Program-made: the position numbers and the translations under genes
Virus record (IMG/VR): IMGVR_UViG_3300012984_000026
Span: 1 to 34,989 of that record
Reading direction: 5' to 3' (one strand)
Source of the DNA: a virus
DNA length: 34,989 nt
Notes under the pieces: generated by a model
The model's input: the letters and a program-made list of their open reading frames with translations, nothing else
What the model was told of the DNA's origin: nothing
Databases searched by the model: none
In this document: one piece after another, positions 12,559-27,555 of the stretch
Layout of the letters: each line of letters starts with the position of its first letter
How positions within the stretch are numbered: position 1 is the first letter of the stretch

Positions 12559-12623
12559 CGTGCATACACCTCCTTCTCGCCGTCGGTCAGATCCTGGTCG
12601 AAGTACTCATCCCCACCAGCCAC
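12471..12623 (-). CDS. Possible 50-residue protein overlapping DUF1003 and terminase ends
   Basis: A GTG-started frame of 50 codons bridges the 48-base gap between the terminase and DUF1003 genes and overlaps both, 17 bases of terminase and 88 bases of DUF1003. Its middle, DQDLTDGEKEVYARWW, reads like a folded helical small protein and not like shadow coding. The ribosome site is poor (GGTGGAG only three bases before GTG). It may be genuine overlapping coding or chance; I rate it low. Confidence 0.3.
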   Translation of the reverse strand: MAGGDEYFDQDLTDGEKEVYARWWTSVKDRPSDSVVLMPSPQESDPGPSS

Positions 12624-14493
12624 GGTCTCCACCCTGGTCTCCGATCTGGGACAGGTAGTCCAGATCGATCGTCATGTTCTTGCGCTTGTCGCGCTCGGAC
12701 TGATACTCGTTGTTCACGTGGAACACAGACTCAATGTCGTTCACCAGCTCCCGTGCTCGCGTCTCCGCGAACCACAGCGCCATGACCGTGTCCTGCTTGG
12801 CCTTGGACTGAGGGAACCATGTGGTGAGCTGTTCTACGAGGGCCTTAGTGCCCTCGTTCTGTGAGCGACTGGGAAGCCTGATCAGGCCCTTCCCTTCCTT
12901 CGCTCCGTCGAACAGCATCGACATGGAGGCGACGCCGAAGTCGGCGTCGTTCTTGTTCGATCCGGTGAAGTGTTCCTTCAGGATGGTTCCTCGTGAGCCG
13001 AGGAAGTTCCGGAGGTCACGGTTCTGCGTGACCATCAGGTTCATCGCGTTCTTCTCGATGACCCACTCGTGCATGTGGTACTTGACAGTCCAGGACTTCA
13101 GCTTGTCGAAGAGGTCGTCTGGCTTCTGGTTTGGAGCAGTCCATACGTCCAGGACATACCGCATTCCTGACATTCTGTCCACGCCAAGGACGACAGCCGC
13201 CGCATGACCGGTGATAGCGGGGTCAAAGCCACCAACAACATAAAGCCCGTCCATGCCATGCGGACGGTGTCCTGGTGCCCCCGGGGACATGAGACCAGCC
13301 GCACGCATGCCGTCAATGCTTGCCGCAACCTTGTCGGCTGGGAAGATCGCATCTTCGACCACCTGCTCCTGTTGGTAGACCATCTTCCAGTTGAGCGCCG
13401 AGCTTGTGGCTCGGCGTCGTGCTAGGGCCTTCCCTGAGTGCCAGGGGTAGAGTCCCTCTTCGTTCGCCTCCACCAGTCGTCTTGCTCCGAGCGACACCGG
13501 GGGTCGGTTGGTCCAGGGTGCGAGAACAACCCAGTCGTCAGGGTCATCGGCAAATTCCAGTACTGCGGGCTGAGTGAGATACGTCCAGGGAGACTCTTCG
13601 TCTTGACCGTACCACTCTGGCTTCTGGATCTCAGAGTATAGTTCAACTGGAGCGAGACGCGTTCCAACGAGGAGTAGAGTTCCGCCAGGGTAGGTGAGTC
13701 GGTTGATGACCTCTCGCTGGATCCAGTCGATCTGCTTCTCGAACTCATGAGCGTTCTTACCCGTCACTGTGTCGTCAAGGATGATGAGGTCAGCTCGGTT
13801 ACCGTAGATCTGACCGTTCATGCCCAGAGCCTGCACGGTGGGCGTGGCCTCACCGGAGTCTCGGGCTTCAGCGTTCACGTAAATGGAGTCGGCGGTCCAC
13901 GACGCGCTGTTCGCGTCGAACCCACCATCGGGAGCGAAGTCGTGCTGGAGCTTCTTGTATGACGGGTTGGCTCCCGCCAGCCTGTCCTTGATCGCCCGAA
14001 GGAATCGCTTGGCCATCTCCTGAGTCTGCGACACGATGATGACTCGGATGTTCGGGTCCTGGCAGACCCGATAGGTCACGTAGTTCACTGTGATGGTCGT
14101 AGACTTCGCGTGCTCCGGAGGAGTGTTCACGATGAGCATTCCGGGGTCACCCTGCTTGAAGATCTGAGTCTCATGCAGATCGCGGGGAGGACGTCCCTCA
14201 AGGACGTCGTACCACTGCAATTGATGACGGAACAGCTTGGTGTCCAGGTACTCCTCACAGAAGACGGGGAAGTCAGGTACTTCCTTCTGTCCGCTCATGG
14301 ACTCAGCGGACTCCATGTTCGAGAGTCGCTTGTACTCCTCTCGGAACACCTTGTCCGAGTCCTTGTAGTACTGAACAGCCTGCTTAGTGATGCCCAGGTC
14401 CAAGATGGCCTTGGACATCGGGATACCCTTCCTCATGTAGTTGAGGATGGTCTCCTTCTTCTCCTTGGTCGTCCTGTTGACAGGTCGTGCCAT
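12607..14493 (-). CDS. terL: Terminase large subunit
   Basis: The 628-residue product has an N-terminal helix-turn-helix-like segment (about 15-60, SKAILDLGITKQAVQYYKDS), which may stand in for a fused small subunit. The ATPase follows, with a Walker A-like NTPPEHAKST (123-132) and Walker B DLIILDD (235-241). The RNase H-like nuclease begins at GGFDPAITGH (D424) with a later EKNAMN segment. It cuts and pumps phage DNA into the procapsid through the portal. It is the first gene of the late operon. No separate small terminase gene is seen upstream, where the long non-coding region begins. Confidence 0.95.
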   Translation of the reverse strand: MARPVNRTTKEKKETILNYMRKGIPMSKAILDLGITKQAVQYYKDSDKVFREEYKRLSNMESAESMSGQKEVPDFPVFCEEYLDTKLFRHQLQWYDVLEGRPPRDLHETQIFKQGDPGMLIVNTPPEHAKSTTITVNYVTYRVCQDPNIRVIIVSQTQEMAKRFLRAIKDRLAGANPSYKKLQHDFAPDGGFDANSASWTADSIYVNAEARDSGEATPTVQALGMNGQIYGNRADLIILDDTVTGKNAHEFEKQIDWIQREVINRLTYPGGTLLLVGTRLAPVELYSEIQKPEWYGQDEESPWTYLTQPAVLEFADDPDDWVVLAPWTNRPPVSLGARRLVEANEEGLYPWHSGKALARRRATSSALNWKMVYQQEQVVEDAIFPADKVAASIDGMRAAGLMSPGAPGHRPHGMDGLYVVGGFDPAITGHAAAVVLGVDRMSGMRYVLDVWTAPNQKPDDLFDKLKSWTVKYHMHEWVIEKNAMNLMVTQNRDLRNFLGSRGTILKEHFTGSNKNDADFGVASMSMLFDGAKEGKGLIRLPSRSQNEGTKALVEQLTTWFPQSKAKQDTVMALWFAETRARELVNDIESVFHVNNEYQSERDKRKNMTIDLDYLSQIGDQGGDRGWWG

Positions 14494-15498: not shown

Positions 15499-15518
15499 CG
15501 CAGGTCCTGTGACCTGCG
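15499..15518 (+). terminator. Possible intrinsic terminator hairpin
   Basis: CGCAGGTC and GACCTGCG pair perfectly (8 bp) around CTGT. A run of six T follows, but only after 11 intervening bases, so this is not a textbook terminator. It separates the iteron field from the rRNA-like leader. Confidence 0.4.
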
Positions 15519-15733
15519 GATCCCATGATTTTTTGGACCAACCTCATGATCAACAGGCGTTTGCAGGGGGTGCAACACAAGCAAAGTGAACGGTCGTTAA
15601 CGTGCTCTGACCTGCGAAGTTGGACAACATCCAGAGCAAACGCGCCTACTTAAGCCATCGCCACCAAGCAACACGGCGAAGCGGGACCGAGAACGCGCCG
15701 CCCTCCGGGGCGGTAGCCAAGGGACCTGCGCTC

Positions 15734-15754
15734 CTTTGAGAACTCAACAGCGTG
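15734..15754 (+). promoter_or_regulatory. rRNA-operon-type boxA antitermination motif (copy 1)
   Basis: TTTGAGAACTCAACAGCGTG is the boxA-containing sequence known from actinobacterial rRNA leaders and spacers (mycobacteria have TTTGAGAACTCAATAGTGTG). There NusB and S10/NusE bind the RNA to make RNA polymerase resistant to termination. Its presence outside an rRNA operon, in the sense direction relative to the plus-strand genes, suggests the phage recruits the host rRNA antitermination machinery. The 16S-like hairpin follows 70 bases downstream, as 16S follows boxA in a real operon. I could not identify the promoter that would transcribe it. Confidence 0.75.
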
Positions 15755-15824
15755 ACGACTCAGCAGGCCACAAGTGTGGCTGCATGACGAAAGGGCGCGT
15801 ACCCTCCGGGGGCGCGGACGTCCA

Positions 15825-15869
15825 AGCTAGTAGGTGAGGTAACGGCTCACCTAGGCGACGCGGACTAGT
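15825..15869 (+). ncRNA. 16S rRNA-like hairpin (helix 11 region mimic)
   Basis: The 36 bases from AGCTAGTAGGTG to CTAGGCGACG match, from memory, the E. coli 16S segment around positions 245-285 with about one change. They also match the Streptomyces version (TTGGTGAGG ... CTCACCAA) with a paired substitution that keeps the helix. TAGGTGAG (15831-15838) pairs with CTCACCTA (15846-15853) around the loop GTAACGG. GCTAG outside it pairs with CTAGT at 15865-15869. No other substantial rRNA is present in the window, so this is a fragment or mimic and not an rRNA gene. Weak resemblance may extend upstream to about 15780. Confidence 0.7.
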
Positions 15870-15990
15870 CAGGCAAAAGATCCTGCCGAGTGGTTTCTCA
15901 GCTTGCTGGGAAGCGGGGCTCCGCCCCGGGGGAAGCGTCCCCCTCAAGACGCTGGTTAGACATGCCCTCCCGACTGCGGGGCATGCACGC

Positions 15991-16018
15991 TTGACACGCC
16001 TTAGGGCGTGTCTATAGA
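15991..16018 (+). promoter_or_regulatory. Sigma-70-type promoter P1 with palindromic spacer
   Basis: A perfect -35 TTGACA (15991-15996) is followed after 16 bases by TATAGA (16013-16018), or after 18 bases by TAGAGT. The spacer contains an inverted repeat, ACGCC with GGCGT, so a repressor or activator could bind between the boxes. It points toward the early plus-strand operon. Confidence 0.72.
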
Positions 16019-16139
16019 GTCCTCCCATGCCCCAACTGAGGGGGCAGCACGCCGGAACGCCCTAGCGGCCTAAAACAGCGCGTGATGCCCTTACCGGAAC
16101 CGTTCGCGGAACCGGCTCAACCGGGGGCAGGGAAGCCTC

Positions 16140-16168
16140 TTGACAGCCCCAAAGGGGCTTGCTAGAGT
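16140..16168 (+). promoter_or_regulatory. Sigma-70-type promoter P2 with palindromic spacer
   Basis: TTGACA (16140-16145), a 17-base spacer and TAGAGT (16163-16168) form a near-consensus vegetative promoter. The spacer carries GCCCC AAA GGGGC, a perfect inverted repeat. Transcription would begin near 16175, directly at a small hairpin (GTCGGC with GCCGAC, 16175-16197). The leader then includes the four-way junction and the second boxA. Confidence 0.78.
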
Positions 16169-16258: not shown

Positions 16259-16372
16259 GGGAGGGACCTTCTGAGGGGCTGTAATGGCCTCAAGGGCCTC
16301 TGGTGAACGTTACTGCCGGTCATAACGGTGGGACGGGACAGCATCCAGAGGAGTCGAGAACTCCAGGGCCGT

Positions 16373-16394
16373 TCCTTGAGAATTCAACAGTGTG
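16373..16394 (+). promoter_or_regulatory. rRNA-type boxA antitermination motif (copy 2)
   Basis: CCTTGAGAATTCAACAGTGTG is a second version of the actinobacterial rRNA boxA region, differing from copy 1 at a few bases. It lies about 200 bases downstream of the P2 start, so it would be in the early transcript. NusB/S10-dependent antitermination here could let polymerase read through the many hairpins of the downstream operon. Confidence 0.72.
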
Positions 16395-16715: not shown

Positions 16716-16907
16716 ATGGAACACGCATGTGACTACTGTGACGAGGGACGCCCTGTTGAATGGGCGTACGAAACAGTCGCTCGTGGGTGGAGGTTCCTGT
16801 GCCAGTCGTGCTACGACTGGACGCCGGGCATCCAGGTGTGGGCAGAGATCTACAACCCTCTGCGCTACTACCCCACGTTCGACTACGACACCCGTACCGT
16901 CAAGTAG
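16716..16907 (+). CDS. Small zinc-ribbon-type protein, 63 residues, first early gene
   Basis: The ATG at 16716 follows AGAGAGGA with five bases spacing. A CDYCDEGRP pair at the N-terminus and CQSC near residue 30 give a four-cysteine arrangement typical of a zinc ribbon. The rest is aromatic-rich (WAEIYNPLRYYPTFDYDTR). As the first gene after the leader it is likely among the earliest expressed and may bind a host protein or nucleic acid. No family was recognised. Confidence 0.75.
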   Translation: MEHACDYCDEGRPVEWAYETVARGWRFLCQSCYDWTPGIQVWAEIYNPLRYYPTFDYDTRTVK

Positions 16908-16915
16908 GAGTGATC

Positions 16916-17134
16916 ATGAGTGAATACACCACCATACGAGGGTCCCGAGTGATCCGCGTCAACAAGGTGGGTGGGGGCACACTCGGTCACCGGTACGCTG
17001 GTGACTGGGAGGTCACGGTCACGGACTCCGGTACGGTTGTGCTGGACGATGTGATCACGACCGGTACCCCCAAGTTCTACTGCGAGGTTGCTGACCTCGC
17101 AGAGGAGTTCTCCGACGATCTGGACGAGGTGTGA
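16916..17134 (+). CDS. Small early protein, 72 residues
   Basis: The gene starts at ATG with AGGAGTGATC directly upstream, nine bases after the previous stop. The protein begins with a short strand-rich basic part (TTIRGSRVIRVNKVGGG) and ends in an acidic segment (LAEEFSDDLDEV). One cysteine is present and there is no membrane segment. No family was recognised. It is part of a four-gene cluster of very small proteins before the tRNA-like-element cassettes begin. Confidence 0.72.
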   Translation: MSEYTTIRGSRVIRVNKVGGGTLGHRYAGDWEVTVTDSGTVVLDDVITTGTPKFYCEVADLAEEFSDDLDEV

Positions 17135-23092: not shown

Positions 23093-23797
23093 TCAGCCCT
23101 CGTAGTCCTTATCGACTATGTGCTGTGCTGTATCCCCCCGGCCGACGTGTCCACGAGTGACAGCATCCGCTGTACGCCCGTCGTAGCCGTTCCTAAGGTC
23201 GCCTAGCGACCTTTCCCCGAGGGCCTTCTGAATGGCCTTCACAGCGTTGTCCAGGATCTTCTGGGCCCGCTGTCTGGTGAAGCCCATGGCGTCACCGATC
23301 TGCTGGTGTGTGTAGTGGTACTTGTAGCGCCACACCAGCGCGTTGTACTGTTCCTCTGGAAGGGACGCGATGGCACGTGAGACATCGGCATAGCTGGCCA
23401 GATTGTCGCCGGACGTGGCAGGCTCCGACTTAGCTCGGGGCATCCCGTCAGACGCAGCCTGACTGAACGACTGCCAGTCTTCGTGCTCGAACACCACTTC
23501 CAGAATGCTCTTGATCAGGTCGAGCGAGTACTCGAACCGGTCCTCCTGGTGATACCCGTAGTCAGCAGCATCCTCCTTCTTGAGGAAGTCGTTCGCAGCC
23601 TTCACAAGCAGCGGCACAACGACGTTGACCGTGGCGTTCTGATCACTCAGGACTCTGGTGACAGTGTTCTTGTTACTCATGATCCACACCCACAGCTCCT
23701 GCTTGACGTCGGAGATGTCGTGGTGGGCAGGGAAGTTGGACTTAGCGATACCGGCGGCACGCTCGACCGCCGGTGTCAGTCGGGTCCAGTCAATCAC
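23093..23797 (-). CDS. Sigma-factor-like transcription regulator, 234 residues
   Basis: I chose GTG 23797 because GGAG lies six bases upstream; the longer in-frame start lacks a site. The N-terminal part (about 20-50) contains HHDISDVKQELWVWIMSN, resembling sigma region 2.1. The C-terminal part (about 150-205), SLPEEQYNALVWRYKYHYTHQQIGDAMGFTRQRAQKILDNA, has the sequence pattern of sigma region 4 with its helix-turn-helix. It is likely an alternative sigma factor for phage promoters, perhaps the late operon whose leader has no vegetative promoter. The linker between the two regions is longer and poorly conserved. Confidence 0.72.
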   Translation of the reverse strand: MIDWTRLTPAVERAAGIAKSNFPAHHDISDVKQELWVWIMSNKNTVTRVLSDQNATVNVVVPLLVKAANDFLKKEDAADYGYHQEDRFEYSLDLIKSILEVVFEHEDWQSFSQAASDGMPRAKSEPATSGDNLASYADVSRAIASLPEEQYNALVWRYKYHYTHQQIGDAMGFTRQRAQKILDNAVKAIQKALGERSLGDLRNGYDGRTADAVTRGHVGRGDTAQHIVDKDYEG

Positions 23798-23942
23798 AGT
23801 AGTCTCCAAGTCCCTCGATGAAGTCCAGCATCCTAGCATCGCACGCCAGATGGGCGTGCGCTCCTTCTCTCAGTTCCAACGCTGGCTCACCTGGTAGTAT
23901 TCCCTGCCAGCACCAGACGCAGATGTCAGTAGCGTTCCCCAT
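23790..23942 (-). CDS. CxxC mini-protein, 50 residues
   Basis: ATG 23942 lies inside the end of the metallophosphoesterase gene and the stop overlaps the start of the sigma-like gene, so the three genes are coupled. The protein has ICVWCW near the N-terminus and a lone cysteine and histidine later (AHAHLACDARM), enough for one zinc site. It resembles small zinc-finger antisigma or adaptor proteins only in size; function is unknown. Its position invites testing as a partner of the sigma-like protein. Confidence 0.65.
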   Translation of the reverse strand: MGNATDICVWCWQGILPGEPALELREGAHAHLACDARMLDFIEGLGDYCD

Positions 23943-27428: not shown

Positions 27429-27506
27429 GGGCCTGATTCGGTATCGTCCAGGGTGAAAGCCGCATGCGGAACGCCTTGGCACAGGGGTTCGATTCCCCTC
27501 AGGTCC
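27429..27506 (+). ncRNA. TLS8: tmRNA tRNA-like-domain look-alike (78 nt)
   Basis: Acceptor GGGCCTG/CAGGTCC (7 bp) has a G-U at the third pair, T-arm AGGGG/CCCCT carries loop TTCGATT, and A follows as discriminator. There is no D stem: ATTCGGTATCGT leads directly into a long arm CCAGGGTG/CGCCTTGG (8 bp) capped by CCGCATGCGG. Bacterial tmRNA has the same layout, with GGGGCUGAUUC at its 5' end, a stemless D-loop, a long P2 helix and G3-U70 for alanylation. Here the message and pseudoknots are missing. No five-base anticodon stem with seven-base loop can be drawn, so it is not a normal tRNA. Confidence 0.7.
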
Positions 27507-27555
27507 ACAACCCACGGCGGTAGCCGTGGCTAGAGCCACCCGAAGGGATGGCGTT

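Follow-up and report, generated by a model that had tools for sequence, protein, structure and literature searches.

Why should a phage carry, ahead of its early genes, a hairpin that reads like a piece of bacterial 16S ribosomal RNA? The window considered here, meaning the whole stretch of DNA analysed, has 34,989 bases and comprises positions 1 to 34,989 of the IMG/VR virus record IMGVR_UViG_3300012984_000026. Its terminase large subunit gene (12607..14493, - strand; PHROG 38, E 8e-71) has tblastn matches to Streptomyces phage Stella and others, and is 61-65% identical to that of Streptomyces phages of the subfamily Beephvirinae (tblastn); on this identity the window phage is placed near Beephvirinae. 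The - strand encodes the structural genes and the + strand the early-type genes (replication, nucleotide metabolism), and between the structural and the early genes runs a long + stretch in which no reading frame is conserved. It is this stretch that holds the hairpin, a copy of 16S helix 11 (h11). A sigma-factor-like gene (23093-23839, - strand; PHROG 354, E 1e-20), which is conserved in L144, lies opposite the early operon.

The order of elements in the stretch is that of a leader. A boxA-like GAGAACTCAACAG, which we take to be the rRNA-type boxA of actinobacteria, stands at 15738-15750 (+) with 0 mismatches to the pattern used, and the h11 copy follows ∼70 nt behind it on the same strand; the start of the boxA lies 81 nt before 15819, the first base of a 47-nt copy. 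Upstream of the boxA there is a repeated TGACCTGCG motif (15504-15616), which by eye is also present in Omar, L041, L089 and L090. Downstream of the copy are two promoter-like sites on the + strand, TTGACA-18-TAGAGT (15991..16020), which overlaps an inverted repeat seen by eye, and TTGACA-17-TAGAGT (16140..16168); shuffles give an expectation of 0.2 such sites. A block common to relatives, recognised by eye, then occupies 16260..16377 (+), and a second boxA-like GAGAATTCAACAG adjoins it at 16378..16390 (+; read from the sequence). The whole block, 16260-16390, ends in ..GTTCCTTGAGAATTCAACAGTG, the second boxA, in the window and also in L004, L011, L036, L039 and L069; by eye it is present in relatives with and without h11, and an Rfam scan of the stretch containing it lists no family there. 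Of the early reading frames, the first to follow the leader (16916..17134, +; tblastn) has its start, ∼16916, placed where the likeness to L004 begins, and a longer frame at 16760-17134 has no PHROG match. The distance from the h11 copy to this first conserved frame is ∼1.05 kb, and a 94-codon frame runs on the strand opposite the copy. We infer that the + stretch with the boxA and the h11 copy is a single untranslated leader transcript of the early operon, which would include boxA-like sequence at both 15738-15750 and 16378-16390.

How close is the likeness to 16S? The copy extends over 15820..15865 (+); its core, 15825-15860, reads AGCTAG-TAGGTGAG-GTAACGG-CTCACCTA-GGCGACG, and around the core GTCC (15820-15823) faces GGAC (15862-15865). 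The 36 bases of the core are matched 36/36 in Stella, 35/36 in KM209255, which is annotated as 16S, and 34/36 at best among the five Pseudomonadota 16S loci compared. The Rfam 16S model, RF00177, matches the window at model positions 237-308 with E 4.2e-8 and 27.9 bits, below its gathering score of 50. In a 301-base scan the match has 22.3 bits (E 9.4e-5), and in two longer cmscan runs it is unlisted. It is the single RF00177 match, with no rest of the 16S beside the copy. Model R1 gives the copy 54.2 bits, a score that is not independent because the window is a member of that model. The longest substring common to the window and the 16S loci is 19 nt, and 30 shuffled windows reach up to 19; this test therefore does not discriminate, and the case for 16S rests on the 36-nt match and the structural match. 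In the latter, all 11 inner pairs of h11 and its apical loop are retained and the 5' internal loop is shortened. The window element is an imitation of 16S helix 11 in its pairs, its internal loop and the letters of its apical loop, which confirms the sequence-only reading that had recognised a 16S helix 11 hairpin in a phage leader.

A segment of this kind could enter a viral record through contamination or mis-assembly with host 16S. Some phage records do hold real 16S, and two of the loci collected here (L094 and L129), which lie at contig ends, resemble fragments of 16S. The element is present, however, in records deposited as complete genomes (Stella, Omar, Yersinia phage 30.14, ZCEC13), the next conserved 16S motif occurs in 0/74 viral loci (among L089-L163) up to 130 nt downstream, and 28 records contain no match to LSU rRNA. 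Contamination is thus an extremely improbable source of the element.

What relatives carry is larger than a hairpin. RF00177 scores exceed the gathering score in Stella (85.4 bits), Omar (68.4) and the three IMG/VR contigs L089 (71.2), L090 (71.1) and L093 (62.6), and in all five the match is confined to model positions 106-311. The copies of Stella, Omar, L089 and L090 contain GAGUAAC.., a stub of h7, h11 and h12, with h8-h10 absent; in L093, the sole addition from scans for longer mimics, a longer insert takes the place of h8-h10. In copies from phages other than those of Streptomyces, h11 is mostly not accompanied by a recognisable h7 or h12. The view of the element as an h11 hairpin alone was thus too narrow, both because relatives have an h7/h11/h12 junction and because the element extends beyond this phage group. 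The silence of RF00177 is weak evidence, since it missed L009 and L041 in a run over 40 records, in which it matched 5, and 10 of 24 records that all carry h11 (14/24 matched). Rfam has no separate family for the phage copies, which are listed, where at all, as SSU rRNA. Behind the 16S imitation of Omar (L002), the early region holds four type II hammerhead ribozymes spread across 1.2 kb (1717-2957), three of them between annotated genes and one inside a gene.

Predicted folds bear on whether the window has a junction too. Both the minimum free energy (MFE) and the centroid structures from RNAfold for 15780-15892 contain h11 with its internal loops; with 15785-15895 as input the inner 11 h11 pairs stay and the outer four pair differently. 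The fold energy is ordinary in the window (z -0.73), and the free energies of five Streptomyces-type copies are not clearly below those of shuffles (z -0.37 to -1.83). In place of the shortened h7, a hairpin is predicted at 15796..15816 (+; MFE and centroid), and in place of h12 a short hairpin at 15870..15888 (+; centroid), where the RF00177 match reaches model position 308. The first of these aligns with counterparts in L004, L009, L125 and L041, with CGCG/CGCG changing to CACG/CGTG (by eye); the common form is a hairpin GCRCG..CC../..GGGCGYG before h11 in which R and Y change together (also by eye). We read these window-like loci (the window, L004, L009, L125 and L041) as a diverged h7/h11/h12 junction. 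L041 keeps the apical hairpin of h11 and has lost the internal loop. For Stella, Omar and L089, RNAfold, which makes no use of 16S information, produces a three-helix junction with one choice of ends; that of Omar is lost with longer flanks, and the MFE structures of L090 and L205 are without h11.

Copies of h11 are found well beyond the window. An IMG/VR scan with an h11 pattern returned 75 stretches and a wider h11 pattern 99, of which 80 are listed. Sorted by eye, the copies form groups A to D. Group A consists of actinophage leaders. Group B consists of lambdoid phages and prophages with the copy in the pL leader, just upstream of the early genes (examples are E. coli M37H, ABWA45 and TC24, and Yersinia phage 30.14), and is matched in 13/5426 E. 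coli genomes. Group C comprises seven loci, and in the two read fully the copy lies between two reading frames. In group D the copy occupies the lambdoid late leader between the antiterminator Q and the holin, a context taken from the annotated E. coli 730V1 and TC24, the other D contigs being without annotation. The TC24 prophage has B and D copies together. Group D-like copies in phages ZCEC13 and ECOO78 sit elsewhere, that of ZCEC13 between tail and baseplate genes, and other copies are found beside tRNA genes in phages Muldoon and Pokken (L170, L203) and in Shewanella phage Y11. The conjugative Klebsiella plasmid pKPN-498 has a 45-nt h11-like match (L253 2501-2545) within a phage-like region that includes portal and terminase genes. 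Hypothetical genes are annotated over the copy on the same strand in Pokken, ZCEC13 and Yersinia phage 30.14 and on the opposite strand in Stella and ABWA45, so that ‘untranslated’ is not certain everywhere.

The same genome positions can be occupied differently. Phage phi80, with an annotated nutL boxA and gene N, has a different hairpin in the group B slot, and lambda and E. coli HS have other sequence between the same flanks as the group D copy; to judge from these occupants, the h11 copy is a swappable module. Closer to the window, the Beephvirinae FlowerPower, WRightOn, HaugeAnator, Manuel, Dennebes and JXY1 are without the element (best E 0.13).

Is the fold itself kept by selection? Base pairing was assessed in a gap-free alignment of 36 distinct 47-nt copies (13 actinophage, 12 lambdoid early, five group D, three group C and three others), in which identical copies are counted once, 57 loci sharing one 47-mer. 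Left out of the pair count were L092 (genuine 16S), L094 and L129 (probable 16S ends), L041 (below the similarity filter) and the duplicates L001, L084-L088, L091, L111, L119, L133 and L144; model R1 recovered the filtered-out L041 unaided with 39.8 bits. Standard pairs fill 96.4% of 504 cells, compared with 85.0% when shuffled. Both sides have changed in 8/14 pairs (0/500 shuffles as high), and such changes account for 44 cells versus 10.4 in shuffles. The covariation score is 0.329 versus 0.120 (sd 0.014) for shuffles, with 0/500 as high, and slid partners give at most 0.086. The inner stem occurs as UUGG/CCAA, UAGG/CCUA, AUGG/CCAU and UGCG/CGUA, and the h7 stub also covaries, with U-A, C-G and A-U at one position over five loci. 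Because the copies are interrelated and 16S-like letters were the basis of their choice, the shuffle counts should not be taken as probabilities; the same filter makes the conservation of letters in the alignment partly an artefact of the choice, which does not apply to the double changes. That the h11 copy is kept by selection on its fold is well supported by these matched base changes.

The sequence-only reading had arrived at selection from a single pair changed on both sides. The change itself holds against Omar and against the sampled Pseudomonadota 16S (UUGG/CCAA). The same UAGG/CCUA is also found in L129, a probable 16S end, so that this pair alone is no proof of selection after capture; what does show it is the set of 36 sequences. 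The outcomes named in advance as fatal to the idea, loss of pairing in related phages or a similarity limited to a few bases, did not materialise: related phages with h11 keep the pairing, and the similarity goes beyond a few bases.

Part of the variation among copies could come from different 16S sources. In a sample of Pseudomonadota, model R1 matched 36/120 genomes and 30 loci were fetched. The 28 Pseudomonadota loci L222-L249 all have UUGG/CCAA and ATTAG; in 25 of them the next 16S motif follows, and the other three stop short of it. AUGG/CCAU or UGCG/CGUA is found in none of these 28, and none is identical to a phage 47-mer, so that within this Pseudomonadota sample there is no support for the copies having arisen as attachment sites. 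Group C resembles the sampled proteobacterial 16S (ATTAG..GACGAT) and groups B and D, found in E. coli, do not: they carry the ATCAG..GACGAC type and are therefore not like recent copies of the sampled Pseudomonadota-type 16S gene. In sequence terms, this difference between group C and groups B and D suggests more than one capture from 16S.

Repeated capture would also be consistent with a role that involves no protein reader, in which h11 is a stable, ready-made arm taken time and again from 16S genes and protecting the transcript. The slots do accept unrelated hairpins, and the signs of more than one capture agree with this idea. An inert arm would be expected to drift, however, and between distant phages the paired letters change but the loop letters remain 16S-like, an argument that itself loses force in that 16S-like letters were the criterion by which copies were selected. 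On balance, a purely inert arm seems unlikely.

The neighbouring boxA offers another explanation. The copy had been described as lying in the orientation of the boxA, and this is borne out in the window, where the two are on the same strand. In group A, a boxA (at most two mismatches) is found within 350 nt upstream of 10/13 copies versus 0/1754 control windows; the three copies without it are those of Omar, L004 and L089, the last of which has one with three mismatches. In group B, a boxA lies within 1000 nt in 25/67 loci, many of them near-identical, versus 28/1902 control windows. Lambdoid pL and late transcripts depend on antitermination, and the lambdoid copies occupy the pL leader and, between Q and holin, the late leader. 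Together, boxA and h11 might then be an antitermination signal that imitates rRNA, with NusB/S10 at boxA and a ribosomal protein or Nus factor at h11, so that RNA polymerase is kept processive as on rRNA operons. Against this, boxA is found in 0/16 group D and 0/4 group C loci. A TGCTCTTT in the group D late leader was considered as a boxA and rejected: by eye, its pairing partner is an AAGAGCA strand further upstream, and in L204 the AAGAGCA/TGCTCTTT pairing is replaced by GATAATTGCA/TGCAATTATC, with both sides changed (by eye). Most boxA leaders, moreover, are without h11. Among the terL relatives of the window, 51 of 80 loci have enough upstream DNA, and this DNA contains a boxA in 39/51 and h11 in 5/51; model R1 over all 80 loci finds no further h11. 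These counts make boxA a property of early leaders and h11 a module that such leaders can take up. Since boxA accompanies h11 in the early-leader groups A and B only, a fixed unit of boxA and h11 is rejected, and the earlier proposal that h11 completes an antitermination complex with boxA is unsupported as stated. A joint antitermination signal is therefore doubtful.

The copies beside the tRNA genes of Muldoon and Pokken would suit an action in trans. An abundant phage RNA could sequester unbound uS17 or bS20, or else a host factor acting on 16S, and thereby slow ribosome assembly or blind a defence. The leaders have a single copy per transcript, however, and unrelated modules fill the same slots in relatives, which makes such a decoy quite improbable.

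The explanation that we prefer, tentatively and just short of calling it probable, is that the element is a portable imitation of the site on 16S to which uS17 binds, acting in cis. This is in line with the sequence-only suggestion that the hairpin may hold a ribosomal protein. According to PMC3359968, S17 contacts h7, h9 and h11, and according to PMC10285412 the loop capping mitochondrial h11 belongs to the uS17m site. The protein uS17 is favoured because the fuller actinophage form of the element retains the junction of h7 and h11 and sheds h8-h10; the loss of h9 and most of h7 counts against it. In the proposed mechanism, uS17, whose place in the ribosome is at this junction, would bind the h7/h11/h12-like phage RNA in cis and would turn the leader into a stable ribonucleoprotein, so that RNA polymerase and the transcript would more easily last through a long stretch without translation. 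In addition or instead, expression would track free uS17 and, through it, the state of ribosome assembly. Within the window, the presumed + strand early transcript would be the site of this action, with the boxA first, then the copy and then ∼1.05 kb to the first frame. Copies located in early leaders, a late leader and tRNA clusters speak for action in cis on RNA that goes untranslated over long distances. Group C and ZCEC13 are at odds with a role in leaders, though an arm that binds protein or lends stability would suit them.

Several known systems have features in common with the element. The bacterial 16S 5' domain (RF00177) has the same h11 sequence and fold, as the 62.6-85.4 bits of the five phage loci attest; in contrast with it, the phage copies are ∼35-190 nt long, have h8-h10 missing or replaced and lie outside an rRNA operon. 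Leaders of ribosomal-protein operons imitate rRNA for autoregulation. The phage element is likewise a leader that imitates the rRNA site of a ribosomal protein, putatively here, with phage genes downstream: there is no ribosomal-protein gene downstream among the families found in the window or in the annotated lambdoid contexts, and the first frame of the window matched no family in this check. To our knowledge, h11 is not part of nut, and we know of no 16S likeness in the put RNA of phage HK022. The lambda nut and rRNA boxA systems have two things in common with the element: the same transcripts, and a boxA, which precedes h11 in most of the actinophage early leaders and in some of the lambdoid ones; unlike them, group D copies have no boxA. 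HK022 put, according to PMC9378689, is likewise a structured leader RNA of a lambdoid phage and may act on the transcript that contains it. Among the matches listed in a literature search, which covered few subscription journals, there is no description of 16S imitation by phages.

The window also has a tmRNA-like RNA of 82 nt (27429-27510, +; RF00023, 55.2 bits, above the gathering score), with both ends of the tRNA-like domain and without the mRNA-like middle; ARAGORN reports nothing at this position. Partial matches to it occur in 207 phage records, mostly mycobacteriophages, and the longest (∼57 nt) are in Streptomyces phages such as Alone3 and BRock. It is possibly a second imitation of a stable host RNA in the same phage.

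The imitation of rRNA by viruses, at several unrelated genome positions and with hosts of two phyla (Streptomyces and enterobacteria), bears on whether free ribosomal proteins join the control of phage genes, and on whether the machinery that transcribes rRNA includes sequences within 16S. It is conceivable, if unlikely, that unrelated phages with hosts in different phyla share a docking module, the uS17 junction, for RNAs whose transcription needs protection. If this is true, the presence of h11 in early and late antiterminated leaders would point to an unrecognised role of uS17, or of another reader of h11, in the transcription of rRNA.
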